DNA from: Brucella sp. BE17
GTDB taxonomy: Bacteria; Pseudomonadota; Alphaproteobacteria; Rhizobiales; Rhizobiaceae
NCBI RefSeq assembly: GCF_039545455.1
Contig: NZ_CP154468.1
Span: forward strand, 1 to 64,000
Reading direction: 5' to 3'
Length of the DNA stretch: 64,000 nucleotides
The position numbers were made by a program, and so were the translations under genes. This document shows, in pieces, positions 8,690 to 39,116 of this stretch (positions are counted from its first letter, which is position 1; every line of letters starts with the position of its first letter). Below the pieces are notes generated by a model. That model did no database searches and was not told where the DNA came from. It was given only the letters and a program-made list of their open reading frames with translations.

Positions 8690-10252
8690 ATGAGCACCAC
8701 CGCACATCCCGACACAATCCTTATCATCGACTTTGGCAGTCAGGTCACACAGCTGATCGCGCGCCGCGTGCGCGAAGCCAATGTCTATTGCGAAATCGCG
8801 GCCTTCCAGACTGCGGAAGACGCTTTCAAGCGTCTCAACCCCAAGGGGGTCATCCTTTCTGGTAGCCCGCATTCGACGACCGATATCGGCAGCCCTCGCG
8901 CGCCACAGGCTGTTTTCGAGGCTGGTATTCCGGTTCTCGGCATCTGCTATGGCGAGCAGACCATGTGCGAACAGTTAGGCGGCAAGGTCGAGGCTGGCCA
9001 TGACCGCGAGTTCGGTCGCGCGTTTCTCGATGTTCAGGAAGACAGTCCGCTGTTTCACGGCATCTGGGCCAAGGGGACCCGGCATCAGGTGTGGATGAGC
9101 CACGGTGATCGTGTTACAGCGCTGCCGGATGGTTTTGCGATCATCGGCACGTCACCCAATGCGCCCTATGCTGCCGTTGCCGACGAAAAGCGCAAATATT
9201 ACGGTGTGCAGTTCCACCCGGAAGTTGTGCATACGCCCGATGGTGCCAAACTGTTGCAGAATTTCGTTCACCGTATAGTTGGCGTTAAGCCCGGCTGGAC
9301 GATGGGTGCCTATCGCGAGCAGGCTGTGGAAGCGATCCGCAAGCAGGTCGGCAGTGGCAAGGTTATCTGCGCGCTATCGGGTGGTGTGGATTCTTCCGTA
9401 GCGGCCCTTCTGGCGCATGAAGCCATTGGCGATCAGCTTACTTGTATCCTTGTCGACCATGGTCTGATGCGCAAGGACGAAGCTGCCAAGGTCGTGGAGA
9501 TGTTTCGCGAGCATTACAATCTGCCGCTAATTCTTGTTGACGCCGCCGACCGTTTCATTGGCGAACTGGAAGGCGAGAGCGATCCGGAAAAGAAGCGCAA
9601 GACGATCGGCCGTCTGTTCATCGAAGTGTTCGAGGAAGAGGCCAAGAAGCTTGGCGGTGCCGATTTCCTCGTTCAAGGCACGCTTTACCCCGATGTTATC
9701 GAAAGCGTGTCGTTTACCGGTGGACCGTCGGTGACGATCAAATCACACCATAATGTGGGTGGTCTGCCCGAGCGCATGAAGATGCAGCTCGTTGAACCGC
9801 TGCGCGAGCTGTTCAAGGACGAAGTCCGCCTGCTCGGCAAGGAATTGGGCCTGCCTGACAGTTTTATTGGTCGTCATCCCTTTCCGGGACCTGGTCTTGC
9901 TATCCGCTGCCCGGGCGGCATTACGCGCCAGAAGCTTGAAATCTTGCGCGAAGCCGATGCCATCTATCTGGATGAAATCCGCAAGGCTGGTCTTTATGAC
10001 GCGATCTGGCAAGCCTTTGCTGTTTTGCTTCCCGTTCAGACAGTGGGTGTGATGGGCGATGGGCGCACGTATGAATTCGTCTGCGCGCTGCGGGCAGTGA
10101 CATCGGTCGATGGCATGACGGCTGATTTCTATCATTACGACATGAACTTCCTCGGTAATGCGGCAACGCGGATCATCAACGAAGTCCGCGGCATCAACCG
10201 CGTTGTCTATGACGTAACCTCGAAGCCGCCAGGCACAATCGAGTGGGAATAA
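8690..10252 (+). CDS. guaA: GMP synthase (glutamine-hydrolysing)
   Basis: GuaA converts XMP to GMP using glutamine and ATP. The protein of about 520 residues has a class I glutamine amidotransferase domain (catalytic Cys in GICYGEQTM, His in QFHPEV), an ATP pyrophosphatase domain with the P-loop [13 protein letters not shown] (about 230-242), and the C-terminal dimerisation domain ([13 protein letters not shown], ending [11 protein letters not shown]). I prefer the ATG at 8690 over one at 8681. The last codons form part of the island attachment site, and the gene stays intact because the repeat restores its end. An intrinsic terminator follows at 10301. Confidence 0.97.
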
Positions 10253-10272
10253 TTTGGCGTCTGGTAAAGACC
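10241..10272 (+). other. Left attachment site (attL) at the 3' end of guaA
   Basis: The 32 bases from the third-last guaA codon (GAG TGG GAA TAA) to 20 bases past the stop are repeated without mismatch at 23742-23773. An integrase gene follows immediately. Direct repeats of a gene's 3' end flanking an integrase-bearing segment mark site-specific integration; the 3' end of guaA is a known integration site for islands with this type of integrase. Confidence 0.9.
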
Positions 10273-10300
10273 GGCACCAAAGAGCATGAAATAGCAGCTA

Positions 10301-10379: not shown

Positions 10380-10540
10380 TCATGGCATGAAAAATGGTAT
10401 TTCGCAGCCCGATGCCATGCTATCAGCGCAATACCATGACGGCAAAATCCCCGGCATCATGGTATTGAAAATGATTAAGCCACTGATATTAAAGGAAAGA
10501 AACGCTCTAATTTGCCGGTTTTTAATCATGGTATTTTCAG
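10380..10540 (+). promoter_or_regulatory. Repeat-rich integrase upstream region (possible arm sites and promoter)
   Basis: Short repeats of the type ATGGTATT and its complement AATACCAT, plus ATGGCATG/GATGCCATGC, occur at least six times between att and the integrase gene. Clusters like this often hold integrase arm-binding or autoregulatory sites. Two 11-bp copies of ATCATGGTATT (10456 and 10525) bracket 69 bp that is missing from the related copy near 23955. Confidence 0.45.
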
Positions 10541-10544
10541 AGCG

Positions 10545-11753
10545 TTGAAAGGCCGTGTCGTGCTGACAGATACCAAGCTGCGCAACCTGAAACCGCAAGC
10601 CACGCTCTACAAAGTGAATGACCGAGACGGGCTATATGTTGCCGTAACTCCTGCGGGTTCGATCTCCTTTCGCTACAACTACGCTATCCACGGACGGCAG
10701 GAGACGGTCACTTTCGGGCGCTATGGTGCGAGCGGCATCACGCTGGCCGAAGCCAGAGAGCGTCTGAACGAAGCGAAGAAACTCATCGCGGCCGGGAAAT
10801 CTCCGGCCAAAGAGAAGGCGCGAGATAAAGCACGTTTGCGTGGATCTGAGAGCTTTGCAGAATGGGCCGAGAAATGGCTACGCGGCTATCAGATGGCAGA
10901 GTCGACGCGTGATATGCGCCGTTCGGTCTTTGAGCGCGATCTCAAATCCAAATTCGGGAGCTGGAAGCTCGCAGAAATTACCCATGAAGACTTGCGCAAT
11001 CATCTCGATGCGATTGTAGAACGGGGAGCACCGGCGACAGCAGTCCATGCTCGCGAGGTTGTATCTCAGGTATTCCGTTGGGCTATCGAGCGTGGCCAGA
11101 AGTTAGAGAACCCGGCCGATTTGGTTCGCCCAAACAGCATTGCCAAGTTTGAACCGAGGGACCGCGCTTTAACCGCGGACGAGATCGGGCTGATGTACCA
11201 GTACCTTGAGCGCGTTGCGACGGGACCATCGTTCCGCGCTGCTGCCAAGCTTCTGCTGCTGACAATGGTGCGCAAAAGCGAGCTGACCAACGCCACCTGG
11301 AGCGAAATCAGTTTCAGTGATGCGCTTTGGACAATCCCTAAGGAACGGATGAAGCGCCGCAACCCGCATCTGGTTTTTCTCTCGCGGCAAGCGCTGGACA
11401 TCTTCATTGCGCTCAAGACGTTCGCGGGTGGCTCCGATTACGTCCTGCCATCGCGATATGACACTGATTCCCCCATGAGCAGCGCCACGCTGAACCAAGT
11501 GCTTACGCTGACCTATAAGGCCGCACAGAGGGACGGAACGCGGCTTACAAAGTTTGGCCCTCACGACCTGCGCCGCACCGCTAGCACGTTGCTGCATGAG
11601 GCAGGTTACAACACGGACTGGATTGAGAAGTGTCTTGCTCACGAGCAGCGAGGCGTTCGTGCCGTTTACAACAAGGCTGAGTACCGGCAGCAGCGCACGG
11701 AAATGATGCAGGATTGGGCTGACATGATTGATGAATGGACTAAGAATCAATAA
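10545..11753 (+). CDS. int: P4-type tyrosine site-specific integrase
   Basis: This recombinase integrates and excises the island at guaA. It begins with a DUF4102-type N-terminal arm-binding domain (LTDTKLRNLKPQATLYKVNDRDGLYVAVTP), then a core-binding domain (about residues 90-180) and a catalytic domain. The catalytic residues are visible as MVRKSELTNATW (first Arg), HDLRRTAST (HxxR) and the late AVYNKAEY (nucleophile Tyr). I use a TTG at 10545; GTG at 10560 (giving MLTDTKLRN) is equally likely, and an upstream TTG at 10512 less so. All catalytic residues are intact, so the element may still be able to excise. Confidence 0.9.
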   Translation: MKGRVVLTDTKLRNLKPQATLYKVNDRDGLYVAVTPAGSISFRYNYAIHGRQETVTFGRYGASGITLAEARERLNEAKKLIAAGKSPAKEKARDKARLRGSESFAEWAEKWLRGYQMAESTRDMRRSVFERDLKSKFGSWKLAEITHEDLRNHLDAIVERGAPATAVHAREVVSQVFRWAIERGQKLENPADLVRPNSIAKFEPRDRALTADEIGLMYQYLERVATGPSFRAAAKLLLLTMVRKSELTNATWSEISFSDALWTIPKERMKRRNPHLVFLSRQALDIFIALKTFAGGSDYVLPSRYDTDSPMSSATLNQVLTLTYKAAQRDGTRLTKFGPHDLRRTASTLLHEAGYNTDWIEKCLAHEQRGVRAVYNKAEYRQQRTEMMQDWADMIDEWTKNQ

Positions 11754-11789: not shown

Positions 11790-12686
11790 TTGAATATTAA
11801 AGGCGAAATATCTGTTGCCTCAGGCGGGATTCTTAGTTGTGTATCGTTTACTGTGTTCTATTTGGATGTGTTGGTAGGAGATTTGGGATTGGAATATATG
11901 TTAGCGGCTTTATTACCTTTACTTTTTCTTGCTTCGCTTTTTTTCCTTCCAAATGGGATGTGGAAGGCTGGACAAACATTAAAAGGAAATCCTGAAATAC
12001 GAAAGAAAGCTGCTGAAGCCCGTCAGTCTGAGGTTGATCGCCTAAACGCGGGATTAATAAATTCGATAGGACAATTAAAAAATCAGTTGGATGGTTATTA
12101 TCAGATTGAGAAGATTTACAAAGCAATTCAATATGTGATTGCGCGGCATGATTGGTATGAAACGCAGAGGTCTGTGATCCTTGGTTATGTACTTACTATA
12201 ACTGGAATAGTATTTGCTGGAATCACCGCATATTTGGCTACGATTAACGATTTGGTACCAGAGAGATCTTTGATAATTATTGCGAGTATAGGGATGACGC
12301 TAACTATCGGTTTGTTTAACATAGTTCATCTTTACAATAAAGAACTAGATCAAGATCGGCCGTATCGTTTGATTGCTGATATAAGGCATTGGTTTTTTCG
12401 TTATTCTATGCCTGATAAGATAAAAGATTATCAAGGACGTATGGATTATACAAATATTGCTATTGATGTTATTTCTGAAAAAGAAAAATTCTTTAATAGG
12501 GTAATGGAAGTGTCCTCATTAGGGGAGTCTGTGCGAGAAGACTTGGAGCAATTGTTTATACTTCATATTTTGGTAAAGCATAAAAGTGAATCATTGCAAA
12601 AAATGAGATCAAGCTTTACGTTTTTGGTGTTTTTCTTGAATATATCGGCTGTATATTTTTTTATTTATTATAGTATTATTAAATGA
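11790..12686 (+). CDS. Multi-TM protein, first gene of a two-gene cassette of unknown function
   Basis: I do not recognise this 298-residue protein. It has two hydrophobic segments near the N-terminus (about 10-30 and 36-54), a charged helical stretch (about 60-125) ending in RHDWYETQR, a helical hairpin of two long TM segments (about 127-148 and 158-183), a hydrophilic region and a last TM segment (about 275-295). The central W-Y motif followed by a TM pair resembles the layout of SLATT-type 2TM effector domains, but I cannot confirm homology. The proposed start is TTG at 11790; an ATG at 11898 is an alternative. It overlaps the next gene by 4 bp and is markedly AT-rich relative to its neighbours, which suggests transfer. 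Confidence 0.7.
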   Translation: MNIKGEISVASGGILSCVSFTVFYLDVLVGDLGLEYMLAALLPLLFLASLFFLPNGMWKAGQTLKGNPEIRKKAAEARQSEVDRLNAGLINSIGQLKNQLDGYYQIEKIYKAIQYVIARHDWYETQRSVILGYVLTITGIVFAGITAYLATINDLVPERSLIIIASIGMTLTIGLFNIVHLYNKELDQDRPYRLIADIRHWFFRYSMPDKIKDYQGRMDYTNIAIDVISEKEKFFNRVMEVSSLGESVREDLEQLFILHILVKHKSESLQKMRSSFTFLVFFLNISAVYFFIYYSIIK

Positions 12687-13411
12687 TTTCTAATTCATTT
12701 GTTCGATCTGAAGCGTCATTTCTTTATCATTCAGCCAGCTTATGTAGAGAAGCAAAGGAGGGGAGTGATGGAGCTTGGCAAATTGCACCATATATGTGCT
12801 CAATAGATTACACGCCAGATTGCCTCGAGGTGCTAGCAGAACTGAAGCAAATGTTAGCGGAGAAATTTCCTGTACTTTCCCATTTCGGAGAGCGGCGAGC
12901 GGATCGTGCTTACGGTTCAAATTCTGGTAGTATAACTAAGCCAAATTACGTATCGCGTATCAAAAAATTTCCAATCAACGAGGTTAATCAACATAATGAG
13001 ATATTAGAGACTGCACGGCGGGAACCCTCATCCGGAGGTTTGGTTTTTTCAATTTTTAATCCGAGCGATCTAGTCGAAAAGAAGCGTCCAGGCTTTGTGC
13101 CATGTTTAATTGCAGGCTCTTTTCTTGTCCATGAGGGGCAATTACAGCTGAATGCATTTTTTCGATCTCAAAGCGTCGTTGAGTTTGGTTTATTTGATCT
13201 CGAATTTTTGAGGAGATTTCAGATTGATACTGCTGAAAGGATTAATAATCACAGCAGAAAAAAGATCGCGGTAGGAAGTTTAAATATACAATTCGGTCGT
13301 ATTATTATACAGCGCCGCCTTGCTAGGAACAGTAACGGTTTTATAAGGCGACAAGATATCATCGACGATTGGATATCTAATTTATACGAGTTTTGTTTGA
13401 AACACGATTAA
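12683..13411 (+). CDS. Divergent thymidylate-synthase-fold protein paired with a TM protein
   Basis: The 242-residue protein matches the thymidylate synthase pattern in order: YG at 77-78, a segment like the basic dimer loop, FNPSD at 125-129 (compare the WNxxD/E region), VPC at 139-141 with the likely nucleophile Cys141, L-QLNAFFRS at 153-162 with the phosphate-binding Arg161-Ser162, then GL at 169-170 and VGSLNIQFG near 197-205. In an ungapped alignment the position of TS Asn177 is Asp172; Asp there is typical of dCMP-acting relatives. The usual His/Tyr of the HxY motif are Asn/Phe, and the C-terminus is atypical. ATG overlaps the upstream stop by 4 bp, implying coupled translation. Enzyme activity is inference. 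Confidence 0.65.
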   Translation: MISNSFVRSEASFLYHSASLCREAKEGSDGAWQIAPYMCSIDYTPDCLEVLAELKQMLAEKFPVLSHFGERRADRAYGSNSGSITKPNYVSRIKKFPINEVNQHNEILETARREPSSGGLVFSIFNPSDLVEKKRPGFVPCLIAGSFLVHEGQLQLNAFFRSQSVVEFGLFDLEFLRRFQIDTAERINNHSRKKIAVGSLNIQFGRIIIQRRLARNSNGFIRRQDIIDDWISNLYEFCLKHD

Positions 13412-13679: not shown

Positions 13680-13913
13680 ATGAAAAAGGAAAACAGAAAC
13701 AGAGAAAAGACGCTTATTAATCGCAAGACGCTCCTCGATATAGTGCCGCTATCCGATAGAACTATTTACAACATGGAGAAGCGCGGAGATTTTCCACGTA
13801 GAATTGCTCTCACAAGCCGAAATGTTGTTTGGGTTTTGAGCGAAGTTGAGCAGTGGATCGAGGCTCGTAGAAATTCTGGTGCGCAGGCTCCCCGTCCGGG
13901 AATGGGAGCGTGA
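13680..13913 (+). CDS. AlpA-family excision/transcription regulator
   Basis: This 77-residue MerR-like winged-helix protein has the AlpA signature: LINRKTLLDIVPLSDRTIYNMEKRGDFPRRI, then VVWVLSEVEQWIEAR. AlpA proteins of P4-type elements control integrase or act as excision factors, and in alphaproteobacterial plasmids they often precede a replication initiator. Here it sits 4 bp ahead of the initiator gene, so the two are probably co-transcribed. The inverted repeats at 13457-13576 are plausible operators. A broken relative lies at 39117-39308. Confidence 0.85.
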   Translation: MKKENRNREKTLINRKTLLDIVPLSDRTIYNMEKRGDFPRRIALTSRNVVWVLSEVEQWIEARRNSGAQAPRPGMGA

Positions 13914-13916
13914 TGC

Positions 13917-15032
13917 ATGGCAATCAAGCCCGAAGGGCTTCGCCAGATTGATGCTTCCACTCTATTAGGCCGAATTGAGAGCGCTCGCGGTGCCAACGCG
14001 GCGCGGGAGCAACCCATTTCGCAGGGTGCTGGGGCAACAGGCCAGAATGAGTTTGATAGTCACGCGACTATAAATTCTTCCAACATATCGACCGTTCATG
14101 AGCAGATGGCGCGGCTTAAAGAGCGTGACAAGGCGCTCTCTCTTGTACGAAACGCACCAAAAGGTGACGATCAGGCTGACTTTTTTGTGCCTGGCTTATT
14201 TGATGTTGGCGGACGCGATAATCGTTCAATTATGGACGTAGCGCCATTTCGCCTTTCAAAGCGCGATAAGCGTGCAGGGGAGGTTATCCGCCATGAATTG
14301 CCAGACGGCTATGTTGAAGTGAAATCTGGTCCCGACGGAATGGCGTCCGTATGGGATTACGACATCGTTTTGATGACGATTTCTCATCTCACCGAAGCCG
14401 TGAACCGCTGGCGCGACTGTAAGGGTGAAAAGCCGTCCCGCACCTTCACGCCGCACGTTTCCGACATTCTGAAATTTGCCAGAAGGGGCGACGGGAGCCG
14501 TCAGGTCGAGGAACTGGAGGCCGCATTGGATCGCCTTAAAGGGACGACCATCAAAACCGTTCGTGACCGTCAAACCAGTGACGGAAAAACTATGCGGGAG
14601 GTTGAAGCCGAAGGACTTATCAGCAGCTATCGGGTTGTGTCCCGGACGGACACTAAAAAGCTTAGTATCGTTGAGATCGAAGCTCCGAAGTGGATCTATC
14701 GCGAGATTGTAGAGGGTAAAAGCCCAGACGTGCTAACCGTTCACCCCGATTATTTTCTGATAGATCCGGGCATAGGCCGGTTCTTATACAGGTTGGCTCG
14801 GCGGGCCGCAGGAAGGCGAAATGCTAAGTGGTCGTTCCGCACGCTCTATGCGCGCAGTGGCAGCACCGGTAAGTTTAAGGATTTTTCTCGTCATCTCCGA
14901 AAGGTGATAGCTGCCAATGATTTACCTGAGTATCTCCTTCGTGAGGAGCCGGGGAAAAGCGGACCACAGGTCGTAATGATTTATCGTGAAATGTCCGACA
15001 TCCAGCCGCCAAGCAGGAACGAGGGTGGTTAA
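13917..15032 (+). CDS. Plasmid replication initiator, RPA family
   Basis: The 371-residue protein belongs to the replication initiator protein A (RPA) family of alphaproteobacterial plasmids. The domain starts at about residue 80 with DQADFFVPGLFDVGGRDNRSIMDVAPFRLSK, continues with YVEVKSGPDGMASVWDYDIVLMTISHLTEA and ends near residue 345; the first 75 residues are low-complexity. The stop codon lies inside an inverted copy of the iteron (15024-15039), and four direct iterons follow 114 bp downstream, so the gene and its origin form one replicon. An island keeping an apparently intact initiator is unusual; activity while integrated is unknown. Confidence 0.9.
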   Translation: MAIKPEGLRQIDASTLLGRIESARGANAAREQPISQGAGATGQNEFDSHATINSSNISTVHEQMARLKERDKALSLVRNAPKGDDQADFFVPGLFDVGGRDNRSIMDVAPFRLSKRDKRAGEVIRHELPDGYVEVKSGPDGMASVWDYDIVLMTISHLTEAVNRWRDCKGEKPSRTFTPHVSDILKFARRGDGSRQVEELEAALDRLKGTTIKTVRDRQTSDGKTMREVEAEGLISSYRVVSRTDTKKLSIVEIEAPKWIYREIVEGKSPDVLTVHPDYFLIDPGIGRFLYRLARRAAGRRNAKWSFRTLYARSGSTGKFKDFSRHLRKVIAANDLPEYLLREEPGKSGPQVVMIYREMSDIQPPSRNEGG

Positions 15033-20685: not shown

Positions 20686-21537
20686 TTGAGTGTTTACGCA
20701 GTTAAACCAGAAAGGTTTCTTGAGGATCTTGGGTCTGGAACAGCCGTCGATGTCGCATCCCACTTATATTGTGCGGGATTCGATGGCGCAAAATGGCGCT
20801 GTGATAAATTTGCCTTCCACCTAGCTGAGTGGTTACCCGACTACGCCCTCAGAGAGGATGAGTTGGCTGTGCATCACGGAAATTCGCTACTGAAACACAA
20901 TCAAGCAGCGATCCGAGTCTACACCAGCAGTAAGTATGAAAATCGCGGTGAGGTAGGTGAGATCGCCCTTCACGCTATCTGTCGCGATTTTTTCGAGACT
21001 GTCCCTATCAGTCCAAGGGTATTTTATAAATCGGCATCAAATGACGTAATCAAAGCCTTTGACATGGTCCATGCCAGATTCCCTGAAAACGGTGAATTGG
21101 AAATATGGCTCGGCGAGTCGAAAATTTATCAGAAAGGTGCAAGAGCGATAGCTGATGCTATCGGTTCTGTCCGGAAACACATAGAGGCGGGGTTTCTTGA
21201 GAACGAAAAAATACTCTTAGGCCCCCAGATTCCGAAGAGCACACCTAATTATGAGAAGCTTTCGCAGCTTTTCAAAAAAAACGCCAAACTCGATGATTTC
21301 CTTTCTGCAGCCGTATTCCCCATTGGGATAATGTGCGAAAGCCCTGCGGCCGCCATCGCTACAAAAGCAGATGCGGTGTATTTAGCTGCTGCTAAAGCCG
21401 AGCTTGATGCGCTTTCATCCGCAGTAGCTAAGTCGGACCTTATTAAAAAAATAAGGCTTGAAATCATCTACATTCCCGTACCCAAAAAATCCGATATTAT
21501 AAAAGCTTTCGACAAAAGACTGAAAGGATTGCAATGA
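20686..21537 (+). CDS. hamA: Hachiman anti-phage nuclease subunit HamA
   Basis: HamA (DUF1837) is the PD-(D/E)xK-type effector nuclease of the Hachiman defence system. The 283-residue protein shows the family core: GEIALHAICRDFF with Glu92, AFDMVHARF with Asp126, and LEIWLGESKIYQKG with the ExK pair Glu144/Lys146. The start is TTG with a G-rich ribosome site (TGGGGGTG) 5-6 bp upstream. It overlaps hamB by 4 bp. In known systems HamB senses aberrant DNA and releases HamA to cut DNA, which blocks phage spread. All catalytic positions are present. Confidence 0.9.
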   Translation: MSVYAVKPERFLEDLGSGTAVDVASHLYCAGFDGAKWRCDKFAFHLAEWLPDYALREDELAVHHGNSLLKHNQAAIRVYTSSKYENRGEVGEIALHAICRDFFETVPISPRVFYKSASNDVIKAFDMVHARFPENGELEIWLGESKIYQKGARAIADAIGSVRKHIEAGFLENEKILLGPQIPKSTPNYEKLSQLFKKNAKLDDFLSAAVFPIGIMCESPAAAIATKADAVYLAAAKAELDALSSAVAKSDLIKKIRLEIIYIPVPKKSDIIKAFDKRLKGLQ

Positions 21538-23621
21538 GCCTTTCTGAGATAGACTGGAAAAATGTTGAGCAGTTGGAGGGGGCAGCTTTAAAAAGCAAAG
21601 TATTCTCTATCATACAGGAAGCATCGTGCGCAATTCAATCGTTAGCGACTGATGATCCTTCGTTGCTCGCTGTTGTCCCGCGAGTTGCGAAACTGATAGA
21701 CGAGCACGCCGACCTAAAGGGTTTCCGGGAAATACATAGCAGTCTCGCGAGGGCTGTTGGACTGTGGAATTATATTGATACGGAAGCTGCTGATCAACGC
21801 GATCGATATATCGCAGCCTCTGCGAACGTTGAACAGCTAGGAATATCACTTCATAAAGAGCAGATCGTTGCTCTCAACAGTTTATTGAATGGGCATAACC
21901 TTATACTCAGCGCACCGACCAGTTTCGGGAAGAGTGTCCTGATAGACGCGCTTATCCTGAGTGGAAAGTACCGTCGACTTGCTATTGTTTTACCAACTAT
22001 AGCCTTACTCGATGAGTTCCGAAGGCGGCTGAGCTCCAGATTTAGAGCCGATTATGATATTATTATGCATCAAGCAGAGGTTCCCAAACGCGATCGTGTA
22101 ATATTCCTTGGGACGCAGGAACGACTAATTAACCGAAGCGACCTTGGGCGATTGGACTTGGTAGTTGTCGATGAATTCTACAAACTAGATCCATCACGTC
22201 GAGATGACAGAAGTATTACGTTAAACGCAGCCGTTTATAGGTTGTTGAGCTACGCTGAGCAATTTTTCTTCCTTGGACCAAACATTGATAATGTGGTGAT
22301 GTCATCAGATAAGAGATGGAGTTTTGAGTTTTTGCAAACTCGCTTCTCCACAGTAGCTGTTGATACATTCGATCTGCGAAAGGTTGCAGACAAAAAGCAG
22401 CGGTTGATAGAAGAGGCCTTTTCTGCCTCTAATTGGCCTGCTTTGGTTTTTGTATCTTCTCCCGACCATGCGAATTCGCTGGCCACCCATCTTGCGGAAT
22501 GCAAAAAAAACGTGGGTTCTGGTGAAGTCCTTTCCCAATGGATGGTTGAGAATTACGGTGACCGCTGGTCATTGTGTGCTGCCGTTGCAGCTGGGATAGG
22601 GGTCCATCATGGACGCGTTCCAAAAGCGTTGGCTTCGAAATTCATTAAACTATTTAATGATGGTGACTTACCAATATTGCTGTGCACCTCTACCCTTATT
22701 GAGGGAGTGAATACAGCGGCTAGATCTGTCCTTATTTTCGATAAGACAATCAATGGACGCGGATATGATTTTTTCACTTTTTCGAACATTAAAGGGAGAG
22801 CAGGGCGCCTAGGTCAGCATCATGTGGGGCAAGTTTATCTTTTTCATACCCCCCCTGGCTTCGAAGATGTAGACGTAGAGTCACCATTGTTCGGGGACTG
22901 GGAAGAGGCGCCCGATGAATACGTAGTGCATATTGAGGATAGCGACAGCACGCCGACTATAGATACTAGGATCGAAGATTTATCTACACGATCAGGACTG
23001 GATGTTGCGGATTTGAGGCGCTTTTCAGGAATTGGTATCGAAACACTCATCGAAGTGCGAACAATGGTAGCCAATCGATTGGCGAGAGGGATTCATCTAG
23101 ATTGGAACAATTGGCCTGATTATGATCAAATTGAGGCTGTCTGTGAGGTGGTGACGCATATCCGTTCTGCCCAAAAAATGGGTGCGGCCAGCTACAAGCA
23201 ACTGGCGCTTTACATCAGCGAGCTGCGTTCTCAACCAACATTAAAATCCTTTTTTCACTGGCACAATGAGAACTATCGAGGAGACCCCGAAAAGCTGGAT
23301 AATATCTTCAAGTTCCTGCGCGCAGCTGAATACAATCTTCCGGAATATTTTGCTGTTGTCGAACTCATGGTGAAACTTGCCGGATACAAAGTTTCTTACG
23401 CGTTATTCCTTGCTCAGATGCCAAGATGGTTTAGGCAAGACCCTTTGAAGATGCTTGAAGAACAGGGCGTCCCTATCCAAATCTCAGAGCGTTTCATTAA
23501 CGCGACAGACACCTTGTCTTCGTTGTCAGCACGATTGGTGAGTTTGGCTAAGCAAGCTGATCGCCGCATGTCTGCTTTCGAACGGCAGTGGGTGTTGGAG
23601 GCTCTGCCGGACTCCCCATAA
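21534..23621 (+). CDS. hamB: Hachiman helicase subunit HamB
   Basis: HamB is the superfamily 2 helicase of Hachiman. The 695-residue product has motif I (Walker A) SAPTSFGKS at about 126-134, motif Ia IVLPTIALLDEFRRR, a DExH-like box VVDEFYKLD at about 212-219, GTQERLI near 193, a second RecA domain (TSTLIEGVNTAARSVLIFDK) and motif VI GRAGRLGQHHVGQVY. A helical C-terminal domain follows. The DEFY variant matches the family. It is coupled to hamA by a 4-bp overlap and ends 120 bp before the right attachment site, so it is the last cargo of the island. Confidence 0.9.
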   Translation: MSLSEIDWKNVEQLEGAALKSKVFSIIQEASCAIQSLATDDPSLLAVVPRVAKLIDEHADLKGFREIHSSLARAVGLWNYIDTEAADQRDRYIAASANVEQLGISLHKEQIVALNSLLNGHNLILSAPTSFGKSVLIDALILSGKYRRLAIVLPTIALLDEFRRRLSSRFRADYDIIMHQAEVPKRDRVIFLGTQERLINRSDLGRLDLVVVDEFYKLDPSRRDDRSITLNAAVYRLLSYAEQFFFLGPNIDNVVMSSDKRWSFEFLQTRFSTVAVDTFDLRKVADKKQRLIEEAFSASNWPALVFVSSPDHANSLATHLAECKKNVGSGEVLSQWMVENYGDRWSLCAAVAAGIGVHHGRVPKALASKFIKLFNDGDLPILLCTSTLIEGVNTAARSVLIFDKTINGRGYDFFTFSNIKGRAGRLGQHHVGQVYLFHTPPGFEDVDVESPLFGDWEEAPDEYVVHIEDSDSTPTIDTRIEDLSTRSGLDVADLRRFSGIGIETLIEVRTMVANRLARGIHLDWNNWPDYDQIEAVCEVVTHIRSAQKMGAASYKQLALYISELRSQPTLKSFFHWHNENYRGDPEKLDNIFKFLRAAEYNLPEYFAVVELMVKLAGYKVSYALFLAQMPRWFRQDPLKMLEEQGVPIQISERFINATDTLSSLSARLVSLAKQADRRMSAFERQWVLEALPDSP

Positions 23622-23741
23622 CTAAATAGGATTTCCGTCTAATTAGTGACATTTTATTCCATGGTACTGTAAAGGGTATAGATGACGATGTATTCAACTA
23701 ACGTACTGAATTATTTTGGTATTTTCTCAATTTGAATAATT

Positions 23742-23773
23742 GAGTGGGAATAATTTGGCGTCTGGTAAAGACC
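23742..23773 (+). other. Right attachment site, shared with a second island remnant
   Basis: It is identical over 32 bases to 10241-10272, including the final guaA codons GAG TGG GAA TAA. Similarity then continues, with scattered changes, through the terminator and into an integrase fragment, so the site is also the left end of another related element. Confidence 0.9.
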
Positions 23774-23975
23774 AGCACCAAAGAGCATCATATATCATCT
23801 AAGCCCGTGTAATTGCGGGCTTTTTTGTTTTTTGGTGCTGCATTGTCTGGTACTGTTTAGCACGTCCAAGAAGAAATTTTTCATGGCATGAATAATGGTA
23901 CTTCGCAGCCCGATGCCATGCTATCAGCAAAATACCATGACGGCCAAATCCCCGGCATCATGGTATTTTCAGAGC

Positions 23976-24314
23976 GTTGAAAGGCCGTGTCGTGCTGACC
24001 GATACCAAGCTGCGCAACCAGAAACCGCAAGCCACGCTCTACAAAGTGAATGACCGCGACGGGCTATATGTTGCCGCACCTCCTGCGGATTCAATCTCTT
24101 TTCGCTACAACTACGCTATCCACGGACGGTAGGAGACGGTCACTTTCGGGCGCTATGGCGCGAGCGGTATCACGCTTGCCGAGGCGAGAGAGCGTCTGAA
24201 CGAAGCGAAGAAACTCATCGCGGCCAGCAAATCTCCGGCCACAGAGAAGGCGCGAGATAAAGCACGTTTGCGTGGATCTGAGAGCTTTGCGGAATGGGCC
24301 GAGAAATGGCTATC
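23976..24314 (+). pseudogene. Truncated, stop-containing copy of the integrase
   Basis: This stretch aligns without gaps to the first 113 codons of the integrase at 10545. It has a CAG-to-TAG nonsense change at about 24130 and several missense changes, and it ends abruptly near 24312 inside the GAATGGGCCGAGAAATGGCTA stretch of the core-binding domain. Upstream it lacks 69 bp present in the intact copy. It is the dead left end of an older island integrated at the same site. Confidence 0.88.
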
Positions 24315-37853: not shown

Positions 37854-39116
37854 CGCCCCCGGCTTGCGTGCCAGGACCGGAACATAATGCCATGGATTAT
37901 AGATCGTCTCGCCACGGCCAAAGCGGCGTTCATGCCGCCCGATCTAGATCCCATTTTGCCGGATGACAATGCGATCGGCATAGGCATGAATCTCGGCAGG
38001 ACGACCGACCGCGCTCGACATTACCGAATATTTGTTATTGTCGAAACGCACGAGGCAGATCTTGTCGGTAGAGGCCTGTATAGCGTGGAATCCATCGAAC
38101 TTGACGGGATATCCGACCAGAGGGGGCTTCTCCGTTTCGAACACATCCCAGATCGTGCGCTCCTTCTGATCGACATGCTTATGAACGCGCGCGTAGCTGA
38201 TGCATTTGTCCAGCAGCCAGCCGTTTAGCTCATCGTAGGATTTAAAGCGCAGGCGCGGCGTGACGAAGCGCTCCCGCACCAGATTAACCTGGTTCTCGAC
38301 CTGGCCTTTCTCCCAGCCGGACGCAGGCGTGCAAGCCACAGGCTCGGCCAGGTAATGGCTGCACATCTGCTGAAAGCGACGGTTGTATCGTCGTTCCTTG
38401 CCGACAAAGACCGTTTCCACCGTAGTCTTCATATTGTCGTAGATACCGCGTGTGCACGCCCCGCCGAAGAAGGCAAAAGCCCGATCATGTGCATCAAAAA
38501 CCATTTCCTGTGTCTCGCGCGGGTAGGCTCTGACATACATCATCGGGCTGTGGTAGAGCCGAACATGCGCAACTTTCACCTTTGTCGTCACACCGTTCAG
38601 CACGACAATCTCGTGGCTCCAGTCGAACTGGTAGGCTTCGCCCGGTGCGAGTAGAGGGGTGGGTAGGCTTCCGCTGTGACGGATCCGCGCTGCTTCGCCC
38701 AGGTGAGGGCGGAGCGCCGGACCGTGTCGTAACCACCATCGTAGCCCAGATCGCGCAAATCCTCGAATATCCGGATCAGCGTCAACCGTTAACGCGACGG
38801 CTTGGCTTCATTGGTCAGCAGCATTCCATCGAGATGATCCGGCCAGGGACCGAGCTTTGGTTGAGATTGACGGGACCGCTCGTATTTAAACTCCGTCTCT
38901 TCACTGCCCAGAACCTTCCGCACAACTTTCCCCGATATGCCAACTCACGGCAGATCGCTTTGATCGATTTACCTTGCACCCGCGCAAGCCGACGTATCCT
39001 TGAAATCGTATCCACTACAAACATCCAAATAGATAACCTCCGATTGAAAACCGAAGGTCATGTTACCCGCTAATAAGGGGGCACGTCTGGATGTAGATAC
39101 CCCTATCAAGGGGGCC

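Follow-up and report, generated by a model that had tools for sequence, protein, structure and literature searches.

We analysed 64,000 nucleotides of Brucella sp. BE17 (contig NZ_CP154468.1, positions 1 to 64,000; hereafter the window) and describe a pair of overlapping genes at positions 11790-13411 of its forward strand, the first encoding a membrane protein and the second a relative of thymidylate synthase (TS). Their open reading frames (ORFs), 11790-12686 and 12683-13411, share a 4-base ATGA overlap (12683-12686) and lie just downstream of a tyrosine integrase gene (10512-11753, forward strand; Pfam Phage_integrase 5.2e-23, Arm-DNA-bind_3 3.9e-20). GC content is 34.8% in the membrane protein gene (30.4% at third codon positions, GC3) and 40.2% in the TS-like gene (GC3 34.2%), against 55.6% in the integrase (GC3 63.0%), 48.3% in the 13.5-kb element around the pair and 52.9% in the window. 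A first-pass annotation had noted the overlap, the AT-richness relative to the neighbours and the position right after the integrase, all of which we confirm; taken as a whole, its observations hold in part, as does the interpretation built on them. The membrane protein gene probably starts at TTG 11889 or ATG 11898 and not at 11790, because an AGGAGA motif, read from the sequence, precedes both codons at 11876-11881 and the complete homologues (n=2) are 264 and 275 amino acids long; the product would then have about 265 residues. The second gene encodes 242.

That this second protein has a TS fold and belongs to the TS superfamily, as first proposed, is supported by sequence profiles, alignments and a comparison of predicted structures. 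It matches Pfam Thymidylat_synt with an E-value of 2.5e-5 (24.0 bits, just below the cut-off of 24.3) and NCBIfam TIGR03283 at 2.3e-6, far below the equivalog cut-off; among PDB sequences it finds MilA, the CMP 5-hydroxymethylase of mildiomycin biosynthesis, at 2.7e-4. The structures matched by its model are TS and cytidylate hydroxymethylases. A MilA chain comes first, so the best single match is a hydroxymethylase; the remaining MilA entries, at 16.6-16.8, are on a par with ordinary TS. A model built without TS rows also yields a TS fold. The host genome encodes a ThyA of its own, and judged by their sequences the TS-like proteins, which we found at four loci, are a separate family within the fold: they are 46-55% identical to one another and hold their unusual residues in common.

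The active-site columns were read from alignments with TS, phage T4 gp42 (a dCMP hydroxymethylase) and MilA at 10-19% identity. The protein keeps the nucleophile Cys141, Arg161-Ser162, Asp172, Tyr89 and Gln103; Cys141, Arg161 and Ser162 are present in three of the four members, the fourth (L006) ending after residue 140. Asp172 aligns without gaps with Asp179 of gp42, in the column of the TS Asn. According to the literature, gp42 Asp179 is the cytosine selector, E. coli Arg166, in the column of Arg161, is fundamental for thiolate formation besides nucleotide binding, and Ser in the column of residue 162 goes with deoxyribose in TS and gp42, MilA having Ala (PMC6400193, PMC5175136, PMC6005164). 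Much of the remaining catalytic apparatus is gone. The cross-subunit Arg pair is replaced by Gly118-Gly119 in all four members, the catalytic Glu column holds Val64 in the window copy (Asp, Glu and Asp in the other three), the Asp after Arg-Ser has become Ser164 and the His after Cys has become Leu142. The HxY motif is lost under either C-terminal alignment, and a predicted helix takes the place of the segment that closes over folate. The pocket segment 154-178 is nevertheless identical at 25 of 25 positions between the window copy and L003, and at 21 of 25 between the window copy and L005.

The first-pass annotation had correctly placed Cys141 and Arg161-Ser162 on TS landmarks, and Asp172 on the uracil-selecting Asn, but the Tyr-Gly at 77-78, which it counted among those landmarks, does not contain the TS Tyr: it reads YH, FE and FY in the other three members, the aligned invariant Tyr being Tyr89. 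It was also right that HxY is missing, whereas the Asn/Phe it put in its place is not established, the replacing residues being N201/Q203 or I208/Q210 depending on the alignment; Gly118-Gly119 and Val64 it overlooked. All four proteins share two further invariant cysteines, Cys21 and Cys39, besides Cys141, which is seen in three; no role for Cys21 or Cys39 in TS is known to us.

Asp172, Val64, Gly118-Gly119 and the loss of HxY do not fit an active ThyA (EC 2.1.1.45). As for a hydroxymethylase, the Asp that replaces Asn and goes with cytosine is present, and the catalytic Glu and the ribose-binding His and Tyr are not. We know of no membrane partner for MilA. The MilA structures (PDB 5b6d, 5b6e and 5jnh) share 17% sequence identity with the TS-like protein and keep Glu68, His216 and Tyr218, which are missing in the window copy (PMC5175136). 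T4 gp42 resembles the TS-like protein in its fold, its cytosine-type Asp and its deoxyribose-type Ser, and both lack the long folate-closing tail (PMC6400193); gp42, however, retains Glu60, Arg123-Arg124 and HxY, where the new family has Gly118-Gly119 and no HxY, with Val64 in the window copy. A natural TS with one Gly at the Arg-pair position still works, with weaker affinity (PMC6005164). These residue patterns make a cytidine-type ligand plausible and speak against normal methyl transfer, which is unlikely most of all for the window copy; since several catalytic and substrate-holding residues are lost, it is uncertain whether the protein acts as a nucleotide-modifying enzyme at all.

The pair is rare and accessory. 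The TS-like protein occurs in none of 34 congeners; among 397 genomes of the order it was found, besides the window, in one (G210, 57%), a third match of that search (G275) being taken as an ordinary TS. Two overlapping samples, 385 genomes from the class and 398 from the phylum, yielded no copy beyond the window's own, and searches of plasmids, phages and viral contigs gave no member. When a collection of 84,980 species was scanned by pattern, at least two more loci came to light, in Pelagibius marinus (L005) and in a Phyllobacteriaceae metagenome-assembled genome (L006). At all four loci a membrane protein gene lies directly upstream of the TS-like gene, and in 297 genomes of the order its family is confined to the two genomes with a TS-like gene: the two genes are indeed kept together. 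The TS-like frame is open in every member, that of L006 running off its contig, whereas the membrane protein gene of G210 is broken by an in-frame stop and a frame change.

This pattern bears on two alternative explanations. The lost catalytic residues and the broken gene in G210 would suit degenerate cargo, a decayed TS relative and its passenger with no present function; with the TS-like frame open in all four members and unusual residues kept at 46-55% identity, we hold this very improbable. It is unlikely, though less remotely so, that the pair is an addiction module, with a toxic membrane protein bound by the TS-fold protein as its antitoxin; the module would stabilise the mobile element, any effect on phages being secondary. 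The overlap, the constant pairing, the adjoining integrase in the window and an intact TS-like gene beside a broken membrane gene in G210 all fit such a module, but the conservation of the pocket between residues 154 and 178 exceeds what a mere binding antitoxin needs, and in the stretches viewed at three of the four loci no integrase was recognised by eye.

The membrane protein has an N-terminal transmembrane (TM) segment, a TM hairpin after the motif RHDWYExQR, a long soluble part with the motif REDLEQ, and a C-terminal TM segment. Hydropathy peaks for this layout are present in all three intact members, with an extra N-terminal peak in the long window ORF and one additional weak peak in L006; the window protein is 36% and 46% identical to its homologues. 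Profile searches gave no Pfam family, the Pfam listing being filtered so that most matches above 0.1 are dropped, and no credible NCBIfam family. The PADLOC 2TM profile PDLC00700, whose five genomic matches all match Pfam PycTM, recognises two of the three intact proteins weakly (0.016 for the window, 0.0047 for L005) and does not match that of L006. With a profile of those five PycTM proteins, 5, 11 and 163 of 300 shuffled sequences reach the real score of the three intact members; profile-profile comparison (hhalign) with the PycTM-type set gives a probability of 0.3%, and Pfam PycTM itself lists no match. We leave the protein unclassified, with a faint resemblance to Pycsar-type 2TM proteins. 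The SLATT-like character first attributed to it found no support: no Pfam SLATT model is listed, hhalign against four SLATT_5 proteins gives 0.4%, and with a profile of SLATT_5, the sole SLATT type so compared, 41, 119 and 45 of 300 shuffled sequences score at least as high as the real ones.

In a synthase-and-receptor arrangement of the Pycsar or CBASS kind, an active TS-fold enzyme would make a modified cytidine nucleotide on infection, and this would open the membrane protein. The retained Cys141, Arg161 and Asp172, a hydroxymethylase as best single structure match, the faint 2TM/PycTM-type similarity and the acidic residue in the catalytic Glu column of the other three members speak for it. 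Val64 in that column of the window copy, the loss of HxY, of the Asp after Arg-Ser and of the His after Cys, the replaced folate-closing C-terminus and a membrane protein in which no signal-binding domain, S-2TM-beta barrel or other receptor domain was recognised all speak the other way and make it quite unlikely. Panoptes (OptS/OptE; PMC12657218) and Pycsar (PycC/PycTM) likewise combine a nucleotide-handling protein and a membrane effector in two genes, but here the nucleotide protein is neither a cyclase nor an mCpol and the membrane protein has no recognised S-2TM-beta barrel.

The genomic surroundings point towards defence at two of the four loci. In the window, 50 bases at the 3' end of guaA and beyond (attL, 10238-10287, forward strand) recur as a direct repeat at 23739-23788 (attR, forward strand) with 48 of 50 bases identical, which places the pair inside a 13.5-kb integrative element that ends at attR. 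The pair is its first cargo. The last before attR, at the opposite end, is a complete Hachiman system, in agreement with the first-pass annotation: HamA (20686-21537, forward strand; PADLOC HamA 9.7e-106, Pfam HamA 4.3e-39) and the helicase HamB (21534-23621, forward strand; PADLOC HamB 5.8e-189), whose genes overlap by 4 bases. In G210, a genome of another family, the pair is flanked by genes for MarC and for an AcrB-type transporter, in a slot presumably near gyrA. None of the 19 other members of that family searched has the pair. We inspected the slot in ten of them (eight with one or two contigs, plus G119 and G184), and the MarC flank was present in all ten. The slot is empty in two (gaps of 197 and 100 bases) and holds CYTH-CHAD in two (one scanned, the other similar by eye). 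The others contain, one relative each, a retron RT-Toprim I-C (PADLOC 2.5e-178), an FRG protein (PADLOC PDC-S15, 2.8e-33), a DUF2971 protein (PDC-S31, 6.2e-94), McrB and McrC (PDB 7.1e-71 and 1.6e-18; in PADLOC only REase_II for McrB, 9e-18), an HNH-like protein (Pfam 0.0052, below cut-off) and a protein with FHA (1.7e-14) and a likely TM segment. Known or catalogued candidate defence genes thus occupy the slot of the pair in four of ten relatives. The proposed link with mobile or defence loci stands for these two loci and does not extend to the stretches viewed at the other two.

Aside from the pair, the MarC/AcrB slot (L227-L236, L245) is in itself a compact defence-exchange site in one rhizobial family, and its FHA protein (L227:2379-2918) and HNH-like protein (L228:1652-2716), neither with a PADLOC match, are further candidate defence genes.

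Known or candidate defence genes in the slot of four of ten relatives, together with Hachiman in the window, make the case for a defence role. The reading we prefer, with a probability of roughly 0.4, is that the pair is an undescribed two-gene anti-phage module of abortive type carried on mobile DNA, whose membrane effector would be under the control of a nucleotide-binding protein of TS fold, a logic akin to that of Pycsar or Panoptes. The TS-fold protein would bind a nucleotide, probably of deoxycytidine type, with Asp172 as cytosine selector, Ser162 as the deoxyribose-type residue, Arg161 contacting the phosphate and Cys141 capable of attacking the base at C6. Made together with the membrane protein, it would control it, keeping it silent in the presence of the normal ligand or partner state; phage infection, by altering the nucleotide pool or supplying a modified nucleotide, would be the trigger, and the released membrane protein would disrupt the inner membrane. 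An ordinary metabolic or transport pair without a role in defence, joining a nucleotide-modifying enzyme to a membrane carrier along the lines of MilA-type antibiotic pathways, seems rather improbable: a MilA chain is the top structure and two loci lie among metabolic genes, named by eye, yet inspection by eye of the stretches viewed revealed no gene of a nucleoside pathway, a carrier would not usually combine four TM segments and a large soluble part, and the slot is shared with defence genes.

Several points weigh against the anti-phage module. Normalised by query length, Foldseek gives modest TM-scores of about 0.5-0.64, with rmsd of 6 to 12, the Pfam TS match weakens in other members (0.0031 in L005, none listed for L003), and the nucleotide ligand rests on the distant alignments described above; loss of the Arg pair may mean that the ligand is something other than a 5'-monophosphate. 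Pfam, PADLOC and NCBIfam profiles recognise no established effector domain in the membrane protein. In six of the ten relatives the slot is empty or holds CYTH-CHAD or genes not catalogued as defence, and beside the pair no defence gene was recognised by eye in L005 (8 kb) or in the 3.9-kb contig of L006.

Known two-gene systems of such logic join a cyclase, a polymerase or a TIR protein to an effector. A narrower version of the module, which we regard as doubtful, would be a nucleotide-guarding defence of a new class, with a TS-fold pseudo-enzyme that monitors the pool of deoxycytidine nucleotides and frees a membrane-disrupting partner. Phages change this pool by degrading host DNA and by synthesising modified cytosines. 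If the proposal is true, a core enzyme fold of DNA metabolism that phages themselves employ to conceal their DNA would have become an alarm; nucleotide-based immunity would gain a further fold, that of TS, with a cytosine-type pocket and a dismantled catalytic set, and this would suggest direct sensing of the pool on which phage dCMP hydroxymethylases act. The unit is small and testable, with an intact relative in a marine bacterium, Pelagibius marinus (L005:9181-10753). For DndF it has been proposed that phage-modified nucleotides, the products of TS-superfamily enzymes, may be sensed by defence proteins (PMC10853773). DefensePredictor reported an anti-phage transcription unit that contains a TS domain and was validated in E. 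coli (PMC13092281); the pair can therefore not be claimed as the first TS in defence.

Downstream of the pair, the element encodes an AlpA-type regulator (13680-13913, forward strand; Pfam Phage_AlpA 5.8e-13) and replication initiator protein A (RPA; 13917-15032, forward strand; Pfam RPA 7.7e-65), followed, up to Hachiman, by genes that we take to be VirB6-, VirB5- and MobC-like. To the right of attR (23740-24100) the start of the element recurs, with 108 of 120 bases identical from the repeat on, and includes what by eye resembles the 5' portion of another integrase gene; this would be either a remnant or an adjacent element that shares the guaA site. The metabolic part of the window also contains a transposase-like ORF, presumably of IstA type, at 37944-38603.
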